Positions 1-11,578 of a stretch of 59,216 nt of DNA are shown here, piece by piece; the stretch's first letter is position 1, and every line of letters starts with the position of its first letter. Source of the DNA: Parafrankia elaeagni (GTDB lineage: Bacteria; Actinomycetota; Actinomycetes; Frankiales; Frankiaceae); contig NZ_KB893733.1 in the NCBI RefSeq assembly GCF_000374165.1, positions 1 to 59,216 of the forward strand, written 5' to 3'. The notes beneath the pieces are model-generated. The model was not told where the DNA came from. It searched no databases and was given only the letters and a program-made list of their open reading frames with translations. The translations under genes were made by a program, and so were the position numbers.

Positions 1-343
1 GGTCGCGCTTTCATCATCCGACTGGAAGGCCACTTCCGTCACTACGGCTGGCCACGTTTTCGGTAATTCGGCTGCCGGAGTTTCTCCGGTGAAGCTCTGC
101 GTCGTTTCCTCGGAATTTGATCCGGGTGTGCGTGGCCTTGATTTGTGCGGCCCATCCCGGGCGAGCGTGGCGGGATCGCATCCAACTCGCTCCGCTCCGC
201 GCAAGGCACCTTGAGGCGCCCCACAACGTGGCTACGGAACGTCACTGATCACAACCTGGTGCGATCTCTGCGCAGCCCTGGTATCCGCGGGTGTTCACAG
301 CTACGTCGTCGATCTGGCCACGCCCGACACGCCGACACTGCTC
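1..343. other. left-edge region, no recognised gene
   Basis: The + frame 2 is open from the window edge to a TGA at 212-214, about 70 codons with mixed third-position GC. It could be the 3' end of a gene outside the window, but I recognise nothing in it. From about 265 the same frame reads as SDR sequence (a CAALVSAG helix followed by a VVDL strand) leading into the truncated SDR at 344. The upstream part has no TGxxxGxG motif in any frame, so a breakpoint probably lies near 215-265. Confidence 0.3.
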
Positions 344-865
344 ATGACGCGGGTATGCAGTGAACTCGGGGTACCCCAGATACTCGTGAACTCGGCAGGA
401 GTCTACTTGGCACACAGCCTTCTAGAGACCGAGATCACATATCTGGACGAAGTCTATGCGGTCAATGTACGCGCTCCTATACTTCTCACCCGTGAGATGG
501 TCGCACGTAACATCCACGCCGGCTCGGCGGCGAGGATTGTCAATGTCGCCTCGGTGAGCGGCCAGATCGGCAGCCCAGATGCCGCCTATGGAGCATCCAA
601 AGGCGCCCTCATCGCTTTCACCCGGGGCGCGGGGCGCGCATTCGCCAGTAGCGGCATCCGCATAAATGCCGTAGCACCCGGAATCGTAGACACGGATATG
701 GCTCGCGTGATTCCGGAAGATCGCATCAGCTCCTACCTGTCCGATATTCCACTGCACCGTCTGGCATCTCCGGAGGAAGTTTCTGCGGCGGTCGCCTTCC
801 TCCTTTCCGAACAGGCCAGCTATCTTGTCGGAACGGTTGTCGACGTTAACGGCGGCATGAGCTGA
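344..865 (+). CDS. short-chain dehydrogenase/reductase, N-terminally truncated (probable remnant)
   Basis: This is the C-terminal two-thirds of a classical FabG-like SDR, a family of NAD(P)-dependent oxidoreductases of about 250 residues; only 173 remain from the first ATG. Visible motifs are NSAG after beta-4, the catalytic Ser in NVASVSG, the YGASK form of YxxxK, PGIVDTDM after beta-6 and the C-terminal DVNGGMS. The frame can be extended upstream to about 215 through a plausible helix and second strand, but a TGA at 212-214 blocks it and the TGxxxGIG cofactor loop is absent. Without that loop the protein is unlikely to bind NAD(P)H, so this is more likely a decayed gene than an active enzyme. 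It sits at the left end of the biosynthetic cluster and may once have been its ketoreductase. Confidence 0.65.
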   Translation: MTRVCSELGVPQILVNSAGVYLAHSLLETEITYLDEVYAVNVRAPILLTREMVARNIHAGSAARIVNVASVSGQIGSPDAAYGASKGALIAFTRGAGRAFASSGIRINAVAPGIVDTDMARVIPEDRISSYLSDIPLHRLASPEEVSAAVAFLLSEQASYLVGTVVDVNGGMS

Positions 866-1244
866 CCTCGCACCGGCCGGCCCACCCGGCCCATCCAGAT
901 TCCAGACTCTGACCGAGGTCCGGCCGCCGACGATCCCCGCTCCGCGGACCAGCCACCACCGCCACACGCCGCCTGCCCGCTGAGCAGAGCGGACCCGTCC
1001 AACCACGGGTCCCGACGGCCCGTCTGTCGAACGGATACTCCCCGCCGTGGTTCCTGGCGGGCATCGCGGATCATCGCGCCGCGACATTCACGCAGGCGCC
1101 GAGGGGGATGCCTCCGCCAGCGCGCAGGATTCGGCAGGGCCGCCACACAGTCCAAAGATCGGGGTGCGACCCTCCGACCCTCCCCTGCCTGACCCACACG
1201 TCCGATTCTCCATCCCACTACTCTCCTGCGAGGAAGTTTAACAT
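866..1244. other. intergenic region before the ligase gene
   Basis: This 379-bp stretch holds no convincing gene; the open frames are GC-driven. It presumably contains the promoter of the downstream cluster genes. A Shine-Dalgarno sequence GAGGAAG lies about 8 nt before the ATG at 1245, in a locally AT-richer patch (GTTTAACAT). Confidence 0.4.
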
Positions 1245-2657
1245 ATGTGGCTCCCAACAAGTCCAAAATATCGGGATTTCGTCGAGGAGTATTTTGATCT
1301 GCACGGCCGCTACGTCACGGGTGCGGTCTCCGACCAAGAACTGCACGACTGGTCGGAGAGCCAGCTACGCAAGGTTGTCGCGCTCGCCAAGGAGGGTTCT
1401 ACCTTTTACCAAAAGCAACTTGCCTCGATCGACGCCCGAAGCCTCCAGCTCGGCGACCTTCAACAGCTTCCCTTTACTACTAAGGAGGACCTGCGGAATC
1501 AGATGATGAACATGCTCAGTCGAGACCTGGACGAGGCGTGCTTCTTCTACGAGACGACCGGCACGACCGGCCGCGCCACCCCCTGCCCTCGCGATGCACG
1601 GGAGGTGATGGCAAGCAATGCGCACGTCACAGAATCCTGGCGCAATATTTTCGCGAAGCACTTTCCCGGGCGGAATCCCCGGGTCGGCCTGATGGGCCCC
1701 ACCGAGGTCCACTCCACCGGAGACACCCTTGGCGACATCGCCCGGAACGTAGAGTCGATGGTCGCCAAGATCTGGCCTTATTCGCCTGTCATGGGCTTCC
1801 GCAGGGCACTCGAGCTGATGCATCAGCTCCAACTTGACGTCATATTTTGTACCCCCAACGTCGCTATGACCCTCGCCAAGGCCGCATATTTTTACGGGTT
1901 CGATCCTCGCAAGGATTTCGCAGTGAAGGTCTGGCTAGTTACCGGAGAGCTCTGCACTCCGGCTCTCGCGCGACAGATCGACACCGCATGGGATGCCAAA
2001 ACCTACAACGCATTGTACGGGGCTCAGGAGAGTCTTGTCATCGCCTCGGCATGCGCAAACGGCCGGCTGCACCTGGCCGCACCCAATTACGTAGCCGAGC
2101 TCATCGACCCGGATACGGCGGAGCTCCTCGGTAGCTACGGCAGCGGAGAGCTTGTCGTGACGATGCTGATCGAGGGTGCCAAGCCGCTTATCCGGTATCG
2201 GACGGGCGACTACGTGCATATCGCACGGAACAACTGCGGCTGCGGCATTTTCGGGCCTCTGATCGAAATCGCGGGCCGCACTCTGGATCGGCTTGCTTTC
2301 GGAGGACGCAGCTGGCGTGCGTGGGATGTGGAGGAAGCCGTCCTTCGCGGTGTGGAATCCTGCCTCGGCTACCAGGTCGAGATCGGCCGTGACGAGCATG
2401 GCGGCGATGTGCTGCGGGTCCGGCTCGACGTCCGCCAGCGGCCCGGCCAGGCCGCGGTGCAGGCTCATGCAGCGAGGATCTCCGAACAGCTCGGCGTGCC
2501 AGCGGTGGTCGAGCACGTGGACGAGCTCGACCCGGTGACGACGACAGGGGCCTTCGTGAGCTGGAAGGCGGCCCGCATCAAGGACACACGTCACACGGAC
2601 GACAACGAGACGAAGGCAGCGGTGGCCATGGCCGGCAAGCGGGGATACCGGTCTTGA
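1245..2657 (+). CDS. PaaK-like adenylate-forming ligase (phenylacetate-CoA ligase family)
   Basis: 470 residues, close to the usual 430-450 of phenylacetate-CoA ligases, which activate aryl or other carboxylic acids as acyl-AMP and pass them to CoA or a carrier. The N-terminal helical region contains the family pattern of FYQKQL followed by DLQQLPFTTKEDLR. The P-loop is ETTGTTGRATPCP (about residues 103-115); YGAQE (about 263) replaces the usual YG-x-SE/TE; the hinge region contains RYRTGDY (about 319) with NCGCG and GR-x-LDRL after it. The start is chosen for GAGGAAG 8 nt upstream. The 3' end overlaps the BacA-like gene by TTGA. In this cluster it could load an aryl acid onto CoA or the carrier domain of the NRPS, but that is inference. 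Codons such as AAA, ATA and TTT are commoner here than in the his/trp genes. Confidence 0.8.
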   Translation: MWLPTSPKYRDFVEEYFDLHGRYVTGAVSDQELHDWSESQLRKVVALAKEGSTFYQKQLASIDARSLQLGDLQQLPFTTKEDLRNQMMNMLSRDLDEACFFYETTGTTGRATPCPRDAREVMASNAHVTESWRNIFAKHFPGRNPRVGLMGPTEVHSTGDTLGDIARNVESMVAKIWPYSPVMGFRRALELMHQLQLDVIFCTPNVAMTLAKAAYFYGFDPRKDFAVKVWLVTGELCTPALARQIDTAWDAKTYNALYGAQESLVIASACANGRLHLAAPNYVAELIDPDTAELLGSYGSGELVVTMLIEGAKPLIRYRTGDYVHIARNNCGCGIFGPLIEIAGRTLDRLAFGGRSWRAWDVEEAVLRGVESCLGYQVEIGRDEHGGDVLRVRLDVRQRPGQAAVQAHAARISEQLGVPAVVEHVDELDPVTTTGAFVSWKAARIKDTRHTDDNETKAAVAMAGKRGYRS

Positions 2658-3334
2658 CAGCGCCCGGCAAGATCGTCAAGGCACCGCGAACGGAGGAGAG
2701 CTCGATCCGCTGGGAGCCAAACCTCCTGGCAGAGGATCTGTTCGGCGATGGACTGACCGTACCGATAGCGACGCTCGGCCCCCGGGGAACATCGGCGATG
2801 GCCGCGCTGGACTGGTTCGCGGAACACGTCCAGGCCGTCCACCGGACGGTGATCCAGCCCCGGGCCTACCCGAACTTCGACGAGCTGCTCGAGGCCGTGA
2901 CCAATGGCGGGCCGCGATTCGCCCTGGTGCCCAGCGCAGCGGAATCGGCGACGCGGTTCTTCTGGTCGCCGCGGCTGCGGTTGCTCGGCTCGTTCAGCCG
3001 GCCGACACCACGCTATGGCCTGGCGGTCCGACGTGGCTCCAGCCTTCCTACAGGCTCTGCCCTGCGGGTGTCGTCGTTACCCGAGACTGAGGGGCTCATC
3101 GAGCTCCTAGAGCCCCGGTTCGCGCCTGATACCGCGGACAGCTCGCCCGGTGGCTGGACCGTGGAGTGGGTGACTGCGTCGTCGACTTACCATGCGGCGC
3201 AGCTTGCCCGCCAAGGCGCAGCCGACGTCGCCGTGACGAACGAACCGGCACGAGCAGCCTGCGGCCTGACCTTCCTGAGCAGCCGCTCCGGCATCGCCAT
3301 GATCTGGCTGCTCTTCGGACAGCGTTCTGCGTGA
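2654..3334 (+). CDS. BacA-like prephenate decarboxylase family protein
   Basis: 226 residues. It resembles bacilysin BacA, which decarboxylates prephenate without aromatisation to dihydro-4-hydroxyphenylpyruvate, and more distantly PheA-type prephenate dehydratase. Matches I can place from memory of BacA are TLGPRGTSAMAAL near residue 42, an FDELLEAV...ALVPSAAES segment, PRYGLAVRRGSS, a DVAVTNEPA segment and the C-terminal SRSGIAMIWLLF. The TRF motif of true prephenate dehydratases is absent at the C-terminus and there is no ACT domain, which favours decarboxylase over dehydratase. The TTG start overlaps the ligase stop (TTGA), implying translational coupling. No BacB, BacD or BacG partner lies in the window, so the later route is open. 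A divergent non-decarboxylase role is possible. Confidence 0.7.
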   Translation: MTAPGKIVKAPRTEESSIRWEPNLLAEDLFGDGLTVPIATLGPRGTSAMAALDWFAEHVQAVHRTVIQPRAYPNFDELLEAVTNGGPRFALVPSAAESATRFFWSPRLRLLGSFSRPTPRYGLAVRRGSSLPTGSALRVSSLPETEGLIELLEPRFAPDTADSSPGGWTVEWVTASSTYHAAQLARQGAADVAVTNEPARAACGLTFLSSRSGIAMIWLLFGQRSA

Positions 3335-3399
3335 ACTCGAAACTTACTCCCACCGGCGCAGAAAACGGTGAAGACGTTCTAGGACGTACAAGGAGCACC

Positions 3400-4734
3400 A
3401 TGAAATACGGCCCTCGACTCCTCCTGCACAACGTGACATTGCAGGAAGGATGTGGGACGGTGTCGAAACCCGCCCATTCTGTCCTGCTGGCCGGGGAACG
3501 GATCGAGGCGATCCTTCCGAGCGGCGCCGCACCACGGGACGGCGACTTCCTCTCCTGGGATCTGGCCGGTGCGACGGTGATGCCGGGGATGACACTCGGC
3601 CACACGCACATCGCTTATGTTGATGTCACCAATGCGCGGGAGACGCTGTTCAAGTACCGTGTTCCCGAGCTCGCGCTGCGTGCCGCCGGGCACGCCAGAG
3701 GTCTCCTCGAACGAGGCTACACGGCATTTGTCGGGGCCGGATCGGTGGCCGGCATCGACATGGCTCTGAAGAACGCGATCGAGGCGGGTAGCGTACCCGG
3801 GCCGCGTGTCACCCCCTGTAGTCGGGACCTGATGGTGTCCGGTCCACCGGACCGCCGGACACCTGAACTTTCGAAACGCATGCCAAGGGAACTCATGCCA
3901 GTGGTGGACCTCGTAGGCGACATGGTCACCTACACGAACGAGGAGATCGACCAGGGCGCTGAAATCATCAAAGTCTTCTCCTCCGGCGACGACACCTTCC
4001 CGAATGCCCGTTCCAAGGAGCTGCTGTTCAGCCTCGACGAACTGCGCACCGTCGTGCGGATCGCCGAGGAGCGCGGCGTGCGCGTGCGAGCCCACTCCCG
4101 TGGGATTGCCGGGATACGCAATTCCCTGCTGGCCGGGGTTCATATCATCGACCATGCGAGCTACGCGGATGACGATGCTCTGGAAAAGATTGCCGAGCGC
4201 GGCATCTTCGTCGTGCCGAGCCTTTACCAACCTGTTCGGCTGCTGGCGGCCGGCATCGAACACGGGAAATCTGTGGAGTACCTGGACGGCCTGGATTTCA
4301 ACCAAGAGATCGAGAATACGCTGACTTTCCTACCCCGCGCAGAGAAGCTAGGTCTTCGCATTGTTCCCGGCGACGACTTCGGATTTGCCTGGACACCACA
4401 CGGCACGTACGCGGAGGAACTGATTACCTACGTTGAGAGGGTGGGGATCAGCCCCGAGACGGTACTGAAGTGGGCCTGTAGGAACGGCGCGGCGCTAGCG
4501 GGCAGGGGCAAGGATGCCGGCGTTCTCGCGCCCGGCCGACTGGCCGACATTGTCGTCTGGTCACGGGACCCCGCTACCGACATCTCGGTGCTCCGGGAGC
4601 CCGACGCCCTGCGTTCGGTGCTGATCGGCGGCAGGCACGTGGCTGGACCCGAGGCACCGCCGCGCACAGCACCCGGGCAGACGGCCGATGCGCTGCCTAG
4701 GGCCACGCCCGCCACGATGGCAGCCAGCCACTAA
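3400..4734 (+). CDS. metal-dependent amidohydrolase (imidazolonepropionase/prolidase-like)
   Basis: 444 residues of the amidohydrolase superfamily (cyclic amidase, imidazolonepropionase and dipeptidase-like branch). Metal ligands of the TIM barrel are visible: GHTH (HxH) after VMPGM, a Lys in IIKVFSSG that may be the carbamylated bridging residue, His in VRAHSRG, His in IIDHASY, and Asp in VPGDDFGF. The C-terminal GVLAPGRLADIVVW closing strand of the composite beta-sandwich is also present. The ATG at 3400 is chosen because AAGGAG ends 4 nt upstream; the open frame extends further 5' but there overlaps the preceding gene. It follows the BacA-like gene by 65 bp and precedes the flavoprotein by 35 bp, so all are likely co-transcribed. 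The natural substrate is unknown; it could trim an amide or cyclic intermediate of the pathway. Confidence 0.8.
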   Translation: MKYGPRLLLHNVTLQEGCGTVSKPAHSVLLAGERIEAILPSGAAPRDGDFLSWDLAGATVMPGMTLGHTHIAYVDVTNARETLFKYRVPELALRAAGHARGLLERGYTAFVGAGSVAGIDMALKNAIEAGSVPGPRVTPCSRDLMVSGPPDRRTPELSKRMPRELMPVVDLVGDMVTYTNEEIDQGAEIIKVFSSGDDTFPNARSKELLFSLDELRTVVRIAEERGVRVRAHSRGIAGIRNSLLAGVHIIDHASYADDDALEKIAERGIFVVPSLYQPVRLLAAGIEHGKSVEYLDGLDFNQEIENTLTFLPRAEKLGLRIVPGDDFGFAWTPHGTYAEELITYVERVGISPETVLKWACRNGAALAGRGKDAGVLAPGRLADIVVWSRDPATDISVLREPDALRSVLIGGRHVAGPEAPPRTAPGQTADALPRATPATMAASH

Positions 4735-4769
4735 ACGCTCACAGTACTCCCAACCCCAGGGGAGCAGAC

Positions 4770-5489
4770 ATGCGTTTTACCTTCATTTCCGGCTCGGAAC
4801 GTGCCGGAGGAAACACGGACATGGTGGTCGACTACGCCGCCGAGGTGGTGCACCGCCTCGGCGGCGAGACAGATATAATTTCCCTCCGAGAGTTCCGGAT
4901 AAATCCATGCAGCCCATGCGGGGACTGCAATATCAGGACCACGCCATGCGCGATCGAGGACGACGTCCCAAATCTGCTGGATCGGATGGTCCAGGCAGAC
5001 GCCCTGGTATACGCGGCACCGGTGCACGGATTCGGCTTGTCGCACCTTATGCAGATTTTCCTCGAACGGGCAGGTGTCGGGTATCTGCGTTTCGATCGGC
5101 CGCTGGCCAACAAACTGGCTGGAGTCGTTGTCACCGGACGGCGCTACAGCCACTCCGACGTACATGCCCAAATAATGAACAACCTGCTGCTCAACAGGAC
5201 GATTCTGGTTGGGAGCGGTTATCCGGTCACGTTCACCGGCGGCGCTCCGGGGGATGCACTGCGGGACCAGGAGGGCTTGGACGCGCTGTGCAGCATGATC
5301 GACCGGATGGCCGAGTTCGCCCAACTGCTCGGCACACCGTCGGCCGGTGGTCGGAAAGCCCTGCCAGCACCAGCGGAGCGCAACGAGCGGGAGACCTCCC
5401 GGCTCCGCCATCTGGTTCCGCCCACCAGCAACCTGATCGCCCGGGCGCCGGAAGCGAACGGTGCGAACGTCGCCACTGCGCAGGAGTAG
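4770..5489 (+). CDS. NADPH-dependent FMN reductase / iron-sulfur flavoprotein-like
   Basis: 239 residues of flavodoxin fold (PF03358 type). The N-terminus FISGSERAGGNTD is the FMN phosphate loop (SGS-R-x-GNT). The motif CSPCGDCNIRTTPCAIEDD (about residues 47-65) carries clustered cysteines as in iron-sulfur flavoproteins, and YAAPVHGFGLSHLMQIFLER is the second flavin loop with its dimer helix. Residues after about 190 are low in conservation and rich in Arg, Ala and Pro. The start is supported by AGGGGAGC just upstream. In the cluster it could reduce a quinone, dienone or other unsaturated intermediate, which would suit a BacA-derived cyclohexadienol substrate; that link is inference. Confidence 0.75.
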   Translation: MRFTFISGSERAGGNTDMVVDYAAEVVHRLGGETDIISLREFRINPCSPCGDCNIRTTPCAIEDDVPNLLDRMVQADALVYAAPVHGFGLSHLMQIFLERAGVGYLRFDRPLANKLAGVVVTGRRYSHSDVHAQIMNNLLLNRTILVGSGYPVTFTGGAPGDALRDQEGLDALCSMIDRMAEFAQLLGTPSAGGRKALPAPAERNERETSRLRHLVPPTSNLIARAPEANGANVATAQE

Positions 5490-5683
5490 ACATGGGATGC
5501 CAGCTGGGCGCCGGGTGAACCCGAGAATCGCCCCCCCGGCCGGCTGTGGCGCCGCACGGGCCGCCGGATGCAAATCAGGCCGATGAATTCGGTGCGATTA
5601 CACGCGTCGGCAGAACGGGGCCGCAACGTGCCACCAGAATGCCACTCAGCCCTGCCCTCCGCTCACAATCCCTGGAGACATCC

Positions 5684-6895
5684 GTGCGGCTGCGCCTTGC
5701 AGTTCTCGCCCTGGGTATGTTTATCATCGGCACCGACAACTTTGTTTTTGCCGGCATTCTCGACTCCGTGGCGGACGACTTCGGCATCCCGACAAGCGCC
5801 GCGGGTCAGCTCGTCACAGTCTTCTCCCTTGCCTTCGCGCTGCTGTCTCCCGTGCTCGCCACGTTGACCGCTGGCTGGTCGCGCAACCGAGTCTTGCTGT
5901 GCGCGCTGGTGGTGTTCTCAATCGGCAATGCCGCCACAGCACTCGCCCCAAACTACCCACTCATGCTGCTCTCCCGCGTGGTGGCGGCCGCCGGCGCCGC
6001 ACTCTACACACCGAATGCCGCGGCCTCGGCGACGATGCTTGTGCCCGCCGAGCAGCGTGGTCGTGCCCTGTCCGCGGTCTCCGGGGGATTGGCGGCCGCA
6101 GCCATTCTTGGCGTACCGGCCGGTACCTGGCTGGCAGGGAGGAACTCCTGGCAGTGGGTTATGTGGGCGCTAGTGGGCTCGACGGCGGTTGTCGCGGCCG
6201 CGGTGGCTACGGCCCTGCCGAGGCTGGCTCCAGGACCAGCGGTCGGACTGCGACAGCGCCTACGGCCGCTCCGCGACAGCCGCGTCCTGGCGGTCCTTGG
6301 GGTGACCTTCCTCATCTTTCTCGGTGCGTTCACGGTGTACACCTACATCGGCGACGTACTACGACCCGTCACCGATGGCCGAGGTTCGGTCCTCGCACAA
6401 CTGCTGGTGGTCTACGGCATCGCCGGCGGGGTGGGCACCTTCATCGCCGGCCGTGCCACCGATCGCTTCGGGACGTCGGCCGTACTGATCACCGGATTGA
6501 CCGGGCTCACCGCCGGCCTGCTGCTGCTGCCGGTCACCGGCGATACCTATCCTGGTGCCGTCGTGGCGCTCGCTGTGTGGGGTGTCGCGGGATGGAGCGT
6601 CACGGTGCCGCAGCAGGCGAGGCTCCTCGGCGCCGCGCCCGAGCACGGCCCGCTGTTGATCTCGCTGAACAGCGCAGCTCTCACTCTCGGCGTGGCCGGC
6701 TCAGGCACGCTCGGTGCCTTCGGGATCGAGACGCTGGACGCCTCGTGGCTCGGACTCATCGGCGGAGCGGCCACGGGAGCTGCGCTGCTACTTGCCTGCA
6801 CTACCTACCTGCGCGGACGCATCCCTGTCGCGGCCGCCGCTGCCCCCCCGGTATCGGTGGGAACGGCGGCGAGCGCCCTGCGGGACCGCGGGTGA
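5684..6895 (+). CDS. MFS transporter, DHA1 drug efflux type
   Basis: About 403 residues with 12 predicted hydrophobic segments, the size of AraJ/Cmx-type drug:proton antiporters. The first helix runs LAVLALGMFIIGTDNFVFAG; the loop between TM2 and TM3 (LTAGWSRNR) is a weak form of motif A; later features include AAAGAALYTPNAAAS and the central basic loop RQRLRPLRDSR. The GTG at 5684 is chosen because GGAGA lies 7-10 nt upstream; an ATG at 5639 in the same frame would add 15 residues. It stands between the flavoprotein and NRPS genes on the same strand, so it is the probable exporter or self-resistance pump for the product. Confidence 0.8.
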   Translation: MRLRLAVLALGMFIIGTDNFVFAGILDSVADDFGIPTSAAGQLVTVFSLAFALLSPVLATLTAGWSRNRVLLCALVVFSIGNAATALAPNYPLMLLSRVVAAAGAALYTPNAAASATMLVPAEQRGRALSAVSGGLAAAAILGVPAGTWLAGRNSWQWVMWALVGSTAVVAAAVATALPRLAPGPAVGLRQRLRPLRDSRVLAVLGVTFLIFLGAFTVYTYIGDVLRPVTDGRGSVLAQLLVVYGIAGGVGTFIAGRATDRFGTSAVLITGLTGLTAGLLLLPVTGDTYPGAVVALAVWGVAGWSVTVPQQARLLGAAPEHGPLLISLNSAALTLGVAGSGTLGAFGIETLDASWLGLIGGAATGAALLLACTTYLRGRIPVAAAAAPPVSVGTAASALRDRG

Positions 6896-7065
6896 ACGTC
6901 CGTCCCACCGTTGACGGCTCGCCCCTCCCAGACGTCCCCGGGCCGACAGGTGCCATCAGCAAACGTCCCGTTCCACGCCTCGTGTGACGGCAGTCGTCGG
7001 TCCCCTGGCCGCAGGCTCCTACGCGCCCCCGGAACGGCGCCTCCCCACAACCGAAAGGACGCAGA

Positions 7066-10000
7066 GTGAGTGCAGCATCGCCGGCCATGCCTGATGTCTA
7101 CGTCGACCGTTGGGCAGGCATGACGCCTCGCGCCGCAGCCGTCGTGGACAGAGGCCGTTCCCACGACTGGGCCAGGCTGGCAGCCGACGTTTCCCGGCTC
7201 GCCCACAGTTGCCGGCGGCACGGTCTCGGGCCGGGCGACGTCGTACTCATGACCGGCGTTCGCTCCTACGAGGCGGTGGTAACCATCCTCGCCCTGTGGC
7301 GCGTGGGCTGCGTCTACACCCCCGTCGACGCCGAGGACACCTCCGCACGGACGCGCCAGATCATCCGCGGGGTCGGCGCCCGCGCCATCATCATCCTGAG
7401 TGACCGGCCTGTGGATGACATCGGCCTCATGACGCTGTCCTACCCGGACCTGATGCGCCAAAGCTGGGATGATCAGCCATCGCACCCTGTTGTGTTCCCC
7501 CGACCGAGCTCGGCGGCCTACATCATCCACACATCCGGCTCCTCGGGCGCCCCGAAGGGCGTCGTCAACTCCCGGGAAGGGCTGAGCCGAGCCGTCGACA
7601 GCATGAGGGAGCTTCACCTGCACGCGCGGGACCGTGTGCTGCACCACCTGCCGCTGACCTTCGACGCCTCTCTGTTCGAGATATCTCTGGCCCTCGTCTC
7701 GGGCGCGGCGCTCTGCATCGCGGCACCCGGTGTCCTCCCCGGAAGGCCATTGGAGGAGTTCCTGTCGACGGCCGGTGTCTCCGCGGTGGCGACCACGCCG
7801 TCCATTCTGCGCACTCTTCATGCCGGTCGTCTCCGTTCGGTGCGCACGGTCATCACGGGGGGCGAGCGGTGCGATGCCTCGCTCGTCGATGACTGGGCGT
7901 CAGGAAGGCATTTCTTCAACGTGTACGGACCAACGGAGGTCGCGCTCTGGACGACCTTCGATGAGGTGTTCGCCGGGTCCCCTCCCAGCATCGGAAGGCC
8001 GCTTCCGGGCCTGAAGCTGTCCATCGAGGACCGGGAGGGGCGGGTTCTCAACAACGGCGAGCAGGGCGAGCTCGTGGTCACTGGGCCCAACGTCGCCCTG
8101 GGATATCTTGACCTCGCCCAGACCACGGCCTTCTTTGGTGTCGCCGGGCAGGGCGAGCGCCGATATCGGACGGGAGACTTGGCCGTTCTACGTGACGACG
8201 GTCGATACCAGTACCTGGGGAGAGTGGACCGCCAGATCAAGGTACGCGGCTTCAGGATCGAACCCGCGGAGGTCGAGGCCGTCCTCGGCGAGCTGCCGGA
8301 GGTGCTCCAATGCCACGTGATGGCGAGGCCTGATAACCAAGGCTCGCTCGTCGCGTATGTTACACCCTCTGCGGAGCTTGTCGCGCGGACTCGATATGCC
8401 GGCTACATCGGCGCCGTCCGGAGAATGAGTGACCAGGAGTACAACGGCCGGGATGACGTCGCCGGGAAGGCCCTTGACTGGTGCCCCCCTACAGAGGCAG
8501 AACACAACGGATGGCGGTCTGGCCGGCATGGGACCACACTGCCCGTTTCCGTCGTGTCGGAGTGGCTGGAAGCAAGCACACTCCGCGTTCTGGCCGAACG
8601 GCCCCGGTCGCTCCTGGAGATAGGCTGCGGTGCCGGCTTACTTGGACGGCGGCTGCTCGCCGCATCGCGGTCCTACGTCGGCGTCGACGTGTCCGAGCCG
8701 GGGCTCGACCTTTTCCGATCGTGGCTGGCCAGGAACGGCCGGCCACCGGCCACATTGCACGCTCTTCCCGCACACGACGCCTGGGATGTCGCGGCCGAGG
8801 ACACAGATATGGTCGTCCTGAATTCCGTCGTCCAGTATTTCCCGGACGCAACCTACCTGCGAACAGTCCTTCTGCGAGCCGCCAGCCTCTTCCGAGAACA
8901 GGGCGTCATCTACCTCGGAGACCTCCGGGATATCAGGTCCGCTGCAGCGCAACTGAGATTCCGCGGACGGCTGTGCGAGGACGCCACGGCGGACGAGGTG
9001 AGCCGAACGCTCCGCGAGGAGCAGGAACTACTCGTAAATCCGGCCTGGTTCTACAGGGAACTACCCGACCACTGGAGAGTGCTCTGCCGACCCCGGTCTG
9101 GTACCCGTGACACCGAGATGGGCCGGTACCGCTACGACGTCACGATCTTCTGCCCGTCGCCGGCAGCCGACAACAGCCGGGTAAAGGAGGGTACACAGAC
9201 GCATGACGGATGGGCCTACACCGCGGATATCCCGAACCGGCGGCTGCGCGATGACGCGCTCCGCGACGGCGATCCGTCCGTAGTCGAGCGGACGGCGCTG
9301 CTCGACCCGGACGACGTCACCGCGCACGACCGCCCCGGCACGACGGCCATCGCGGTCACCTCCCTCACCGACCACCGGCTGTTTGACATCGTGCACGCCC
9401 CTCTGGAAGCGGACATGCGCGCCGTTGCAACCTTCTGTCACGAGCGCAATCTTCAGCGGGCTTCCCTCGCGCTCGATGCCGGAAGGCCGGTTGTGACCGA
9501 CCCGCTGGGGGTAGCCGTCGGTCAGGAGCTCAGGGCGACGGTACGCGCGAGTGCGGCCGCCAGACTGCCCCTCCACCTGCGGCCTTCGGTGGTGGTTCCC
9601 CTCCGTTCCTTTCCCATCACCGACCATGGCAAAGTGGATGAGAGAAAGCTTGCGCCGGAGCCAGCCTCGGCGCAACGAACAATAGCCGGCCGGACCCCCG
9701 AGGAACGCGCCCTTGCAGCCGCATGGGAGGACGTTCTCGGGACTACCGTGCCCTCGTTCTCAGCGCTGCTCAGCGATGAGGGCGCCACGTCGCTACAGCT
9801 GGTCGAACTCGTCGACCTACTGGAATCCCAGGGCTACGATTTTTCGGTCCGGGACCTTCTCGAGGATCTGCCCTTCGACCAGACAGCGCGACTGATGGCC
9901 GAATCTGGCCAGCGAACCACCGCCGGCCCACGCTGCATCAGAATGCGCAATGCGAAGGAGGCGGGCGGACCCCATCTGATCTTCGTGCATGCCCTGGGTG

Positions 10001-10617
10001 GATCACCTGTCTGCTACTCCAGACTTGTGGACCTCCTGCCGAGTGACATGACCTGTTACGGAATGGCTGCGTCAGCCCAGAGCGGGAGGCTGGCGATCAT
10101 GGATATCGCCCGGCAGTACCTCGCGATCCTGGAGAAGGAGGTGCCACCGGGCCCGGTTCACCTGGTGGGTTGGTCACTCGGTGGGGTTATCGCCTATGAA
10201 CTCGGGCGTCAGTGGCAGCATGAGGACAGAGAGCTGCGCCTCACCCTCTTGGATGCCCCGGCACCCATGGCCAGCGATCCGGATCGTGAGACCCGGTGGG
10301 ATTGGTTGCGGCGGAGCAACGGTGGACTCGCGCTGACCCTGACGGACGGGCGTCGGGAAAAGCAGGCAAGGGCCTTGGTCGATGCCTGCGATGCCTACCT
10401 GCCACCGTCGTCCACCACACCGATCAACATCGTCGTGGCGGCGGATCGGTCCACGGCGGAGGCCCGTGACCGCCTCTTCCGTCAGGGCCGTGCACTGGGT
10501 TGGGACCAGCACGCTCCCACCCGGGTGTATTCCACGCCTGGCGATCATTTCAGCCTGCTTGAGGATCCGCACGCCGCGGAGCTCGCCCGTCTGATTACCG
10601 CTCTCACCCCCAAGTGA
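7066..10617 (+). CDS. NRPS-like A-MT-A-T-TE enzyme with interrupted adenylation domain
   Basis: 1183 residues in one frame. Adenylation core 1-430: A3 HTSGSSGAPKG (155-165), A4 with Asp200 in TFDASLFE, A5 VYGPTEVALW (287-296), A7 YRTGDL (367-372), A8 GRVDRQIKVRGFRIEP. An embedded class I methyltransferase follows (LLEIGCGAG at 516-524, then ELLVNPAWFYRELP and RYRYDV up to about 695, typical of NRPS N-methyltransferases). The A domain then finishes with LPLHLRPS and ITDHGKVD (A10 Lys near 856). The carrier Ser is S909 in EGATSLQL. The thioesterase (about 955-1183) has GWSLGG with Ser1037, Asp1063 and His1161. No C domain or second carrier is present. A hand-aligned pocket code is about DAFTIGVLW(K); the first Asp implies an alpha-amino acid. 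The GTG start is preceded by AAAGGA. The likely product is an N-methylated amino acid or small derivative released by the TE. Confidence 0.9.
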   Translation: MSAASPAMPDVYVDRWAGMTPRAAAVVDRGRSHDWARLAADVSRLAHSCRRHGLGPGDVVLMTGVRSYEAVVTILALWRVGCVYTPVDAEDTSARTRQIIRGVGARAIIILSDRPVDDIGLMTLSYPDLMRQSWDDQPSHPVVFPRPSSAAYIIHTSGSSGAPKGVVNSREGLSRAVDSMRELHLHARDRVLHHLPLTFDASLFEISLALVSGAALCIAAPGVLPGRPLEEFLSTAGVSAVATTPSILRTLHAGRLRSVRTVITGGERCDASLVDDWASGRHFFNVYGPTEVALWTTFDEVFAGSPPSIGRPLPGLKLSIEDREGRVLNNGEQGELVVTGPNVALGYLDLAQTTAFFGVAGQGERRYRTGDLAVLRDDGRYQYLGRVDRQIKVRGFRIEPAEVEAVLGELPEVLQCHVMARPDNQGSLVAYVTPSAELVARTRYAGYIGAVRRMSDQEYNGRDDVAGKALDWCPPTEAEHNGWRSGRHGTTLPVSVVSEWLEASTLRVLAERPRSLLEIGCGAGLLGRRLLAASRSYVGVDVSEPGLDLFRSWLARNGRPPATLHALPAHDAWDVAAEDTDMVVLNSVVQYFPDATYLRTVLLRAASLFREQGVIYLGDLRDIRSAAAQLRFRGRLCEDATADEVSRTLREEQELLVNPAWFYRELPDHWRVLCRPRSGTRDTEMGRYRYDVTIFCPSPAADNSRVKEGTQTHDGWAYTADIPNRRLRDDALRDGDPSVVERTALLDPDDVTAHDRPGTTAIAVTSLTDHRLFDIVHAPLEADMRAVATFCHERNLQRASLALDAGRPVVTDPLGVAVGQELRATVRASAAARLPLHLRPSVVVPLRSFPITDHGKVDERKLAPEPASAQRTIAGRTPEERALAAAWEDVLGTTVPSFSALLSDEGATSLQLVELVDLLESQGYDFSVRDLLEDLPFDQTARLMAESGQRTTAGPRCIRMRNAKEAGGPHLIFVHALGGSPVCYSRLVDLLPSDMTCYGMAASAQSGRLAIMDIARQYLAILEKEVPPGPVHLVGWSLGGVIAYELGRQWQHEDRELRLTLLDAPAPMASDPDRETRWDWLRRSNGGLALTLTDGRREKQARALVDACDAYLPPSSTTPINIVVAADRSTAEARDRLFRQGRALGWDQHAPTRVYSTPGDHFSLLEDPHAAELARLITALTPK

Positions 10618-10750
10618 CCGCGCAGCGGGGCAGGCGAGAAGGCCGCAGGGCGACATGGTGTTGACGCTGGGCTCCCCGGGCCCCGGCGACCTCAGCCGAA
10701 CGCAGAGGTCGCTAACCGCCCGCGTCGATCGCGCTCGTCAGCAGACCACC

Positions 10751-11578
10751 TCAACGGACGAGCAGCACCACAGCCACGACAACACCCAGTATGACGACGG
10801 CGGTACGCAAAACGGTGGCGGGCAGGAGCCGGGCGGCGCGCGCGCCGAGTACACCGCCGCAGGCCGACGTCACCACCAGGATACCGGCGAACGCCCAGGA
10901 CACCTGTGCGGCAACCAGAAAGATCAAGACACCGACCGCGTTCACCCCGAAGGAGAGTAGCGTTTTGAGCGCATTCGTCCGCTGCAGCTCGTCGACCAGC
11001 AGGATACCGAGAACCCCCAGCAGAAGGACGCCGAGCCCCGCGCCGAAATAGGAACCGTAGACTCCCGCGACAAACACGCCGATTCTCGTCGGCCAGGTGA
11101 TGTCGTTCCCCGCGACAGCCGGCGTGACGGCGGTGGCCGACCTAGAGGCGGTGACCGATGCGGTAGAGGGTGCGGACGCCACCGTGGCCGCGCGCCGCCG
11201 GGCGACCACGGCGGCGAGCCGGGACTGCACCGCCAGGAGCAGACAGGCGGCCAGGACCAGGAACGGCACCGCCCTCTTGAAACCGTCGGACGGCGTGAGC
11301 AGAAGAACGATGGCGCCTACCAGGCCGCCGAACAACGCCGGGGGCGCCAGCGCCCGGAGCCGGTGGGCCTGACCGCGCAGTTCCCTGCGGTAGCCGAAAG
11401 CTCCGCCGGCGTACCCGGTGAGAAGACCGACCGAGGAGGTGATGTTGGCGGTGAGAGCCGGCATTCCGGTGGCGAGGAGCGCGGGGAAGGCGATCAGCGT
11501 CCCGCCGCCCGCGATGGCGTTGACCGCGCCCGCGAGCAGTCCGCCCCCCGCGACCAGAGCCGCGTCGGATGGTTCCAC
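10751..11578 (-). CDS. TauE/SafE family sulfite/anion exporter permease
   Basis: 275 residues with about eight hydrophobic segments arranged as two repeats, typical of TauE/SafE (PF01925), which move sulfite, sulfonates or other small anions across the inner membrane. The first repeat has GAVNAIAGGGTLIAFPALL with the conserved Asn and Gly-rich turn; the second has VAGVYGSYFGAGLGVLLLG. A polar Ala/Ser/Thr-rich cytoplasmic loop joins the halves. The GTG start is preceded by GGAGGA at about 4 nt and, just upstream of that, by a 13-bp inverted repeat. It converges on the NRPS gene and is probably not part of the cluster. Confidence 0.85.
   Translation of the reverse strand: MEPSDAALVAGGGLLAGAVNAIAGGGTLIAFPALLATGMPALTANITSSVGLLTGYAGGAFGYRRELRGQAHRLRALAPPALFGGLVGAIVLLLTPSDGFKRAVPFLVLAACLLLAVQSRLAAVVARRRAATVASAPSTASVTASRSATAVTPAVAGNDITWPTRIGVFVAGVYGSYFGAGLGVLLLGVLGILLVDELQRTNALKTLLSFGVNAVGVLIFLVAAQVSWAFAGILVVTSACGGVLGARAARLLPATVLRTAVVILGVVVAVVLLVR

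Follow-up and report, generated by a model that had tools for sequence, protein, structure and literature searches.

A probable benzoxazolinate-type gene cluster in Parafrankia elaeagni with a prephenate-dehydratase-like protein and an amidohydrolase as additional enzymes

Benzoxazolinate helps C-1027 to bind DNA and its carrier protein. In the C-1027 cluster (NZ_CP013739.1) the benzoxazolinate cassette consists of sgcG, a PaaK-family ligase gene, sgcD and a TrpG-like gene. Expression in E. coli and gene deletion have shown that benzoxazolinate is produced by the joint action of a 2-amino-2-deoxyisochorismate (ADIC) synthase, a dehydrogenase of SgcG type and an acyl-AMP ligase of the PaaK family, and related clusters turned up in Proteobacteria and in Firmicutes in a 2022 survey (PMC10098953). 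In that paper, the benzobactin (pbz) and xsb clusters of Pseudomonas and Xenorhabdus likewise involve ADIC, 3-O-enolpyruvoylanthranilate (OPA), a PaaK-family acyl-AMP ligase and a nonribosomal peptide synthetase (NRPS); its authors infer that PbzD loads benzoxazolinate via a non-amino-acid adenylation (A) domain, and a Cys-His-Cys-Cys Zn tetrad is named in NatL2 and XsbC (PMC10098953). Judged from its sequence, the Parafrankia elaeagni locus described here is most probably of the benzoxazolinate type and not simply of the BacA type, and all four genes of the C-1027 cassette have counterparts in it, either in the window (the whole 59,216-nucleotide stretch analysed) or on a second contig, C89.

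The genome assembly comprises 7.59 Mb in 135 contigs, of which the window is one in its entirety (C64). The six plus-strand genes that the initial annotation had placed at 1245–10617, with short gaps or overlaps, are all present as described (Table 1); the first two overlap by 4 bases and the later intergenic gaps are, in order, 65, 35, 56 and 170 bases. Five terminator-like sites were counted, compared with 3.9 on average in shuffled sequence (sd 2.2), which is no clear excess. Pfam and NCBIfam searches returned a PaaK-type ligase, a weak prephenate dehydratase (PDT), an amidohydrolase, an FMN_red protein, an MFS protein and a protein with AMP-binding, methyltransferase (MT), PP-binding and thioesterase (TE) domains. 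The family assignments made earlier thus hold for the ligase, the amidohydrolase, the MFS pump and the A-MT-T-TE enzyme, while the supposed flavin reductase is better described as SgcG-like (below), and the feature start at 344 falls within a short-chain dehydrogenase (SDR) gene of which 344–865 is the 3′ part only, the gene being split by an insertion sequence (IS). The mixed base composition noted earlier was also borne out: G+C is 0.60–0.70 across positions 1–11000 and 0.67–0.77, mostly above 0.70, in the remainder of the window, and GC3 is 0.64–0.77 in the called cluster genes versus 0.83–0.96 in the next three genes.

Table 1. Features of the left part of the window, with the evidence for each.
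Feature	Position	Strand	Evidence
IS right end at contig edge	1..280	.	11-base terminal inverted repeat 270-280 matches C89 IS end
10-base direct repeat (target duplication)	281..290	.	Second copy at L036 14847-14856, contig C89
SDR dehydrogenase, 3′ part, IS-split	281..865	+	TGxxxGIG end on C89 (L036 from 14739)
PaaK-family ligase, C-1027 type	1245..2657	+	42.9% identity over 96% to C-1027 ligase; AjiA1 and NatL2 top PDB matches
PDT/BacA-superfamily protein, separate clade	2654..3334	+	
Amidohydrolase-superfamily enzyme, constant partner of core	3400..4734	+	Pfam Amidohydro_1 2.2e-22
SgcG-like flavoprotein, proposed ADIC dehydrogenase	4770..5489	+	48.6% identity over 87% to SgcG; CX2CX2CX6C in translation
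MFS exporter, Cmx/CmrA-like	5546..6895	+	Pfam MFS_1 1.5e-39; NCBIfam NF033135 3e-57, below cut-off
NRPS A-MT-T-TE, MT within A domain	7066..10617	+	Pfam, 5wmm alignment
Adenylation domain to motif A8	7105..8382	+	Pfam range; code by hand
Methyltransferase domain, approximate limits	8578..8985	+	Pfam Methyltransf_12 4.2e-10; 5wmm 5.9e-22
Thiolation domain	9709..9864	+	PF00550 3.1e-5
Thioesterase domain	9973..10602	+	PF00975 7.1e-18

The left end of the locus coincides with the contig edge, and the cluster carries on in C89. C89 terminates in the 5′ portion of the SDR gene followed by one end of the IS, and the window starts with the other IS end, then the identical 10-base repeat and then the remainder of the SDR, which is intact in the relatives L007 and L023. 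The IS encodes a transposase (read by eye), and the contig break at the window edge is explained by its repetition: the C89 IS end occurs at 13 genome places, C89 included, at 100% identity over 250–266 bases (one more, partial, match has 69%). A search for overlap between C89 and the window contig found none, and the evidence for the join is therefore the IS ends, the 10-base repeat and the split SDR; since the two contigs carry the two ends of one SDR-splitting IS, we place C89 directly beside the window. The predicted locus order is then chorismate mutase, TrpG and TrpE in one direction, and split SDR, ligase, PDT-like protein, amidohydrolase, SgcG-like protein, MFS protein and NRPS in the other. 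At least seven of the 13 IS-end places coincide with a contig end or lie some 12 bases or less from one, and the IS is probably the cause of several assembly breaks in this genome.

The benzoxazolinate-type reading follows from two matches in the plasmid collection search to adjacent C-1027 genes, that of the SgcG-like protein to SgcG and that of the ligase to the product of the gene adjoining sgcG (identities in Table 1). By homology, the former is a putative SgcG-type FMN/[Fe-S] ADIC dehydrogenase and the latter a putative PaaK-family acyl-AMP ligase with a Cys-His-Cys-Cys Zn tetrad, its residues being C270, H276, C331 and C333, aligned with the tetrad of AjiA1 and NatL2; the C-terminal lysine is K441. 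The PaaK-like fold and Zn-binding Cys/His tetrad are shared with NatL2 (nataxazole) and AjiA1 (AJI9561), but these are distant from the Parafrankia ligase (105 and 108 bits, with phenylacetate-CoA ligase chains at 97.5 bits or less). In a tree of ligases, the 36 from clusters of this type plus three of C-1027 type are separated from six ligases of a second cassette (type 2, below) with support of 100/100; the C-1027-type ligases sit inside or beside the 36, and long branches, L066 and L067 among them, are flagged. The window ligase clusters with those of L038 and L007 and next with eight Streptomyces ligases (100/100). This grouping fits transfer among actinobacteria, a hint that the initial annotation had taken from base composition and that is consistent with these nearest neighbours.

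The counterparts of SgcD and its TrpG-like partner were found through a relative, G009, which has the identical gene order plus TrpE- and TrpG-like genes 3′ of the NRPS gene (G009 and L038 are the same contig of a Frankia MAG, with an identical ligase, from the same family as the window genome). The closest TrpE and TrpG in the Parafrankia genome are on C89, in a low-G+C stretch; they are 71% and 78% identical to the G009 pair and 49% and 59% identical to SgcD and its partner. After TrpG on C89 lies a chorismate-mutase-type gene (Pfam CM_2 1.6e-20). We dropped the TrpE tree as a means of deciding between ADIC and anthranilate synthesis: a TrpE encoded beside the genome's second trp set (L037) nests in the same SgcD-like clade, in a tree with flagged long branches. 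That second set (L037 3048–10762, contig C2) has, by eye, TrpC, TrpB, TrpA and TrpD, together with this TrpE and, again by eye, a GntR/MocR-like regulator. In L007 (positions 1–600, a Frankia MAG contig) part of a helicase gene 3′ of TrpG is seemingly repeated by eye, perhaps an assembly artefact.

PDTs carry a TRF motif near the end of the catalytic domain, and BacA-type decarboxylases are without it. The PDT-like protein of the window has a PDT-type or BacA-superfamily fold, although its Pfam prephenate dehydratase match (6.4e-5) is below cut-off and covers 57 residues only, and a PDB sequence search with it gave only a chance match. TRF is absent from the last 16 residues of 11 aligned rows, where the profile alignment ends short of the motif, and a literal TRF at residues 100–102 is in a different place from the PDT motif. 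It was first taken for a BacA-like prephenate decarboxylase; the superfamily is right, but the protein lies outside the BacA side of the tree, where 35 PDT-like proteins stand on one side of a 100/99 branch and BacA (a single row) and the type 2 proteins on the other, again with long branches flagged, and its clade has the motif VP[SGA]A[YA]..T.F.W versus VA[NH]AY...FYM in BacA. Bacilysin BacA and the plasmid cluster of Streptomyces sp. Mg1 share with our locus the protein superfamily and MFS and SDR genes, but identity to the Mg1 BacA is 28%, and a search of the seven window proteins with an E cut-off of 0.1 found neither a BacB cupin nor an aminotransferase. A plain BacA-type pathway was thus rejected on tree position and partner genes. 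A small cupin is present in many relatives' loci. Relatives of the PDT-like protein occur in 3 of 36 whole genomes of the family and 8 of 394 of the class (Parafrankia genome included), and of these eight, the cluster is of this type in five and of another in three.

A second cassette, observed in Frankiaceae, Streptomyces and Pseudomonas (L009, L021, L024, L026, L027, L031), encodes a PaaK-like ligase, a class IV aminotransferase, a BacA-like protein, an ornithine-cyclodeaminase-like protein and a Dabb protein, sometimes with DUF2000 and PhzF, and one copy is on a Pseudomonas aeruginosa plasmid. As in Parafrankia, its ligase has a PDT-like partner one gene away, but both proteins fall in separate clades and its six loci have no SgcG, TrpE/TrpG or amidohydrolase matches.

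For the amidohydrolase, ATG 3400 is a more likely start than GTG 3166; numbered from that ATG, its conserved alignment columns set in at residue 8. H68, H70, K191, H232, H252 and D325, which we take to be its metal ligands, are invariant in 5 sequences. Genome contigs were scanned with an alignment of this enzyme (A3), using a pair of short peptide patterns; of 99 confirmed matches the best 80, an undercount, fall in 78 loci of at most 21 kb in which genes were called mechanically. Within these best 80 of 99, the matches at 44–79% identity form 31 loci (L038–L068) from Streptomyces, Micromonospora, Spirilliplanes, the Frankia MAG, Cellvibrio and Gemmobacter, at least six genera; L020, L022 and L023 were left out of the 31 and may overlap counted loci. 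Profile searches place TrpE, TrpG, the ligase, the PDT-like protein and the amidohydrolase in 31/31 of these loci and SgcG in 30, the exception (L050) being cut short by a contig end; such recurrence among the best 80 of 99 is more than chance. In the other 47 loci of the best 80 (L069–L115, 38% identity or less), tblastn at 1e-10 found none of PaaK, PDT, SgcG, TrpE or TrpG. The three C-1027-type loci examined (L025, L028, L029) carry TrpE, TrpG, SgcG and ligase but, by profile search, neither the PDT-like protein nor the amidohydrolase, both of which the Parafrankia locus has.

Accessory genes of the 31 loci were counted from profile scores with hand-set cut-offs (300 bits for the SDR). Again among the best 80 of 99 matches, a TrpB2-like gene is found in 18 of the 31, an ATP-grasp ligase like that of L023 and a B3/4 domain gene in 17 each, a UbiD-like gene (scoring at least 246 bits) and the mutase in 16 each, and the cluster's SDR in 15. 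The 15 loci in which the mutase was not found, within the same best 80 of 99, include all eight class B Streptomyces loci as well as L053, L066 and L067, and contig ends truncate L038, L050, L060 and L064. The class B loci (L039–L045, L047) have a TrpF-like gene, its family confirmed for L040 only, and only weak matches (73–86 bits) to the L023-type ATP-grasp ligase, and Gemmobacter L067 has TrpB, UbiX and LysE-type genes and a weaker UbiD match (145 bits). In class A loci, within L046–L068, the B3/4 gene (tRNA-editing type) adjoins the ATP-grasp amino-acid ligase gene, as seen in 17 of the 31 loci, and it is possibly a self-resistance gene. Candidate partners of these kinds in Parafrankia were rejected: two TrpB matches both score under the TrpB2 cut-off, and two UbiD genes are on other contigs (C88 and C70). 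TrpB-like, UbiD-like and ATP-grasp ligase genes accompany the core in many of the relatives among the best 80 of 99, and two Frankiaceae have the A-MT-T-TE NRPS in their place; this variety suggests that the core yields an aromatic building block put to different uses.

The NRPS gives a strong score only in L038 (the G009 contig, 56%) among the best 80 of 99. Its MT is inserted ahead of the last A-domain motifs and followed by T and TE, as in the interrupted A domain of 5wmm, with which residues 20–862 align, also across the MT and the A-domain end; a Pfam search found no condensation domain. The A-domain code, read by hand, is presumably DAFTIGVLWK. Its first Asp points to an amino acid substrate, with low confidence a hydrophobic one. 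By this hand reading the domain retains the Asp expected for amino acids; for PbzD, by contrast, a non-amino-acid A domain was inferred by the authors (PMC10098953).

We think it probable that the locus encodes an extended benzoxazolinate-type pathway. What is established here is gene content, homology, linkage and conservation, and from them we infer every reaction in Parafrankia as follows: the SgcD-like TrpE/TrpG pair would convert chorismate to ADIC, the SgcG-like flavoprotein would dehydrogenate ADIC to OPA, and the PaaK-like ligase would adenylate the carboxylate of the enolpyruvyl group, allowing the ring amine to close a 1,4-oxazinone ring. The PDT-like protein and amidohydrolase may then remodel this ring, the former (as a guess) by protonating or hydrating the exocyclic methylene and the latter (also a guess) by opening or re-forming the amide. 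The A-MT-T-TE enzyme would load and N-methylate an amino acid, its thioesterase joining or releasing the product, and the MFS protein would export it. The N-methyl amino acid in the product first proposed agrees with this domain order, and the prephenate-derived unit of that proposal probably gives way to a benzoxazolinate-type one on account of SgcG, the ligase and TrpE/TrpG. Against the benzoxazolinate-type pathway, the ligase shares no more than 43% identity with its C-1027 counterpart and may act on a different acid, the L037 TrpE (above) keeps ADIC and anthranilate synthesis from being separated by the tree, and the mutase-like gene by TrpG misfits a simple scheme.

That gene is central to an alternative in which the mutase and BacA-like protein make a non-aromatised dihydro-hydroxyphenylpyruvate-type unit, to which the NRPS joins an N-methyl amino acid, with SgcG and PaaK forming a second branch. 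Pointing to it are the mutase (16/31 loci among the best 80 of 99), a cupin in many relatives, the superfamily fold and the absence of TRF from the last 16 residues, with the alignment limit given above; the separate clade and motif (one BacA in the tree), the seven window genes with neither aminotransferase nor cupin, and the 15/31 loci of the best 80 of 99 in which the mutase was not found (four of the loci being contig-cut) but the PDT-like protein was make it improbable. Equally doubtful, or slightly more so, is a benzoxazole/3-hydroxyanthranilate pathway of the nataxazole/AJI9561 kind, in which the ligase would form an ester and the amidohydrolase close the benzoxazole: an amidohydrolase is present and AjiA1 and NatL2 head the ligase's PDB matches, but the C-1027 ligase aligns over nearly its whole length, the SgcG-like gene points to OPA, and none of 19 other PDB chains matching the amidohydrolase at 1e-5 or better is labelled NatAM, chain labels being the only guide. 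Compatible with any of these pathways is inactivity in Parafrankia itself. The IS ends, direct repeat and split SDR show the first plus-strand gene of the operon to be broken, so the pathway may be impaired and downstream transcription may be blocked; this is possible but not the outcome that we expect, since the remaining window ORFs are open, the SDR scores below 300 bits in 16/31 relatives' loci (best 80 of 99) and so may be dispensable, and the 379 bases 5′ of PaaK could hold another promoter, although a sigma-70 scan of them found none.

More tentatively, the core (ADIC synthase, SgcG, ligase, PDT-like protein and amidohydrolase, often with mutase and SDR) might make a new chorismate-derived N,O-heterocycle, used as an indole substitute in Streptomyces and Micromonospora and coupled to an N-methyl amino acid in Frankiaceae. 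In the former two genera UbiD would remove the carboxyl group, the TrpB-like enzyme would add serine, the ATP-grasp ligase would make a dipeptide and the B3/4 tRNA-editing-type domain would protect the producer. Such compounds would form a class of tryptophan-like antimetabolites not yet described, and in their synthesis an enzyme of PDT fold would act on a substrate other than prephenate.

The initial annotation knew of no described pathway with this gene set. The full combination of benzoxazolinate cassette, PDT-like protein and amidohydrolase was indeed not found in a literature search of partial coverage, mostly of abstracts, but SgcG and the ligase are known from C-1027; what appears to be new is the constant two-enzyme extension of a cassette that is itself known. 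The extension raises an enzymological question, namely the task of a prephenate-dehydratase fold beside a ligase of the OPA-cyclising type. The TrpB-like, UbiD-like and ATP-grasp neighbours let the product class be tested in Streptomyces and Micromonospora, and the cassette with its constant enzyme pair, in at least 31 loci and at least six genera, is a ready family for genome mining.
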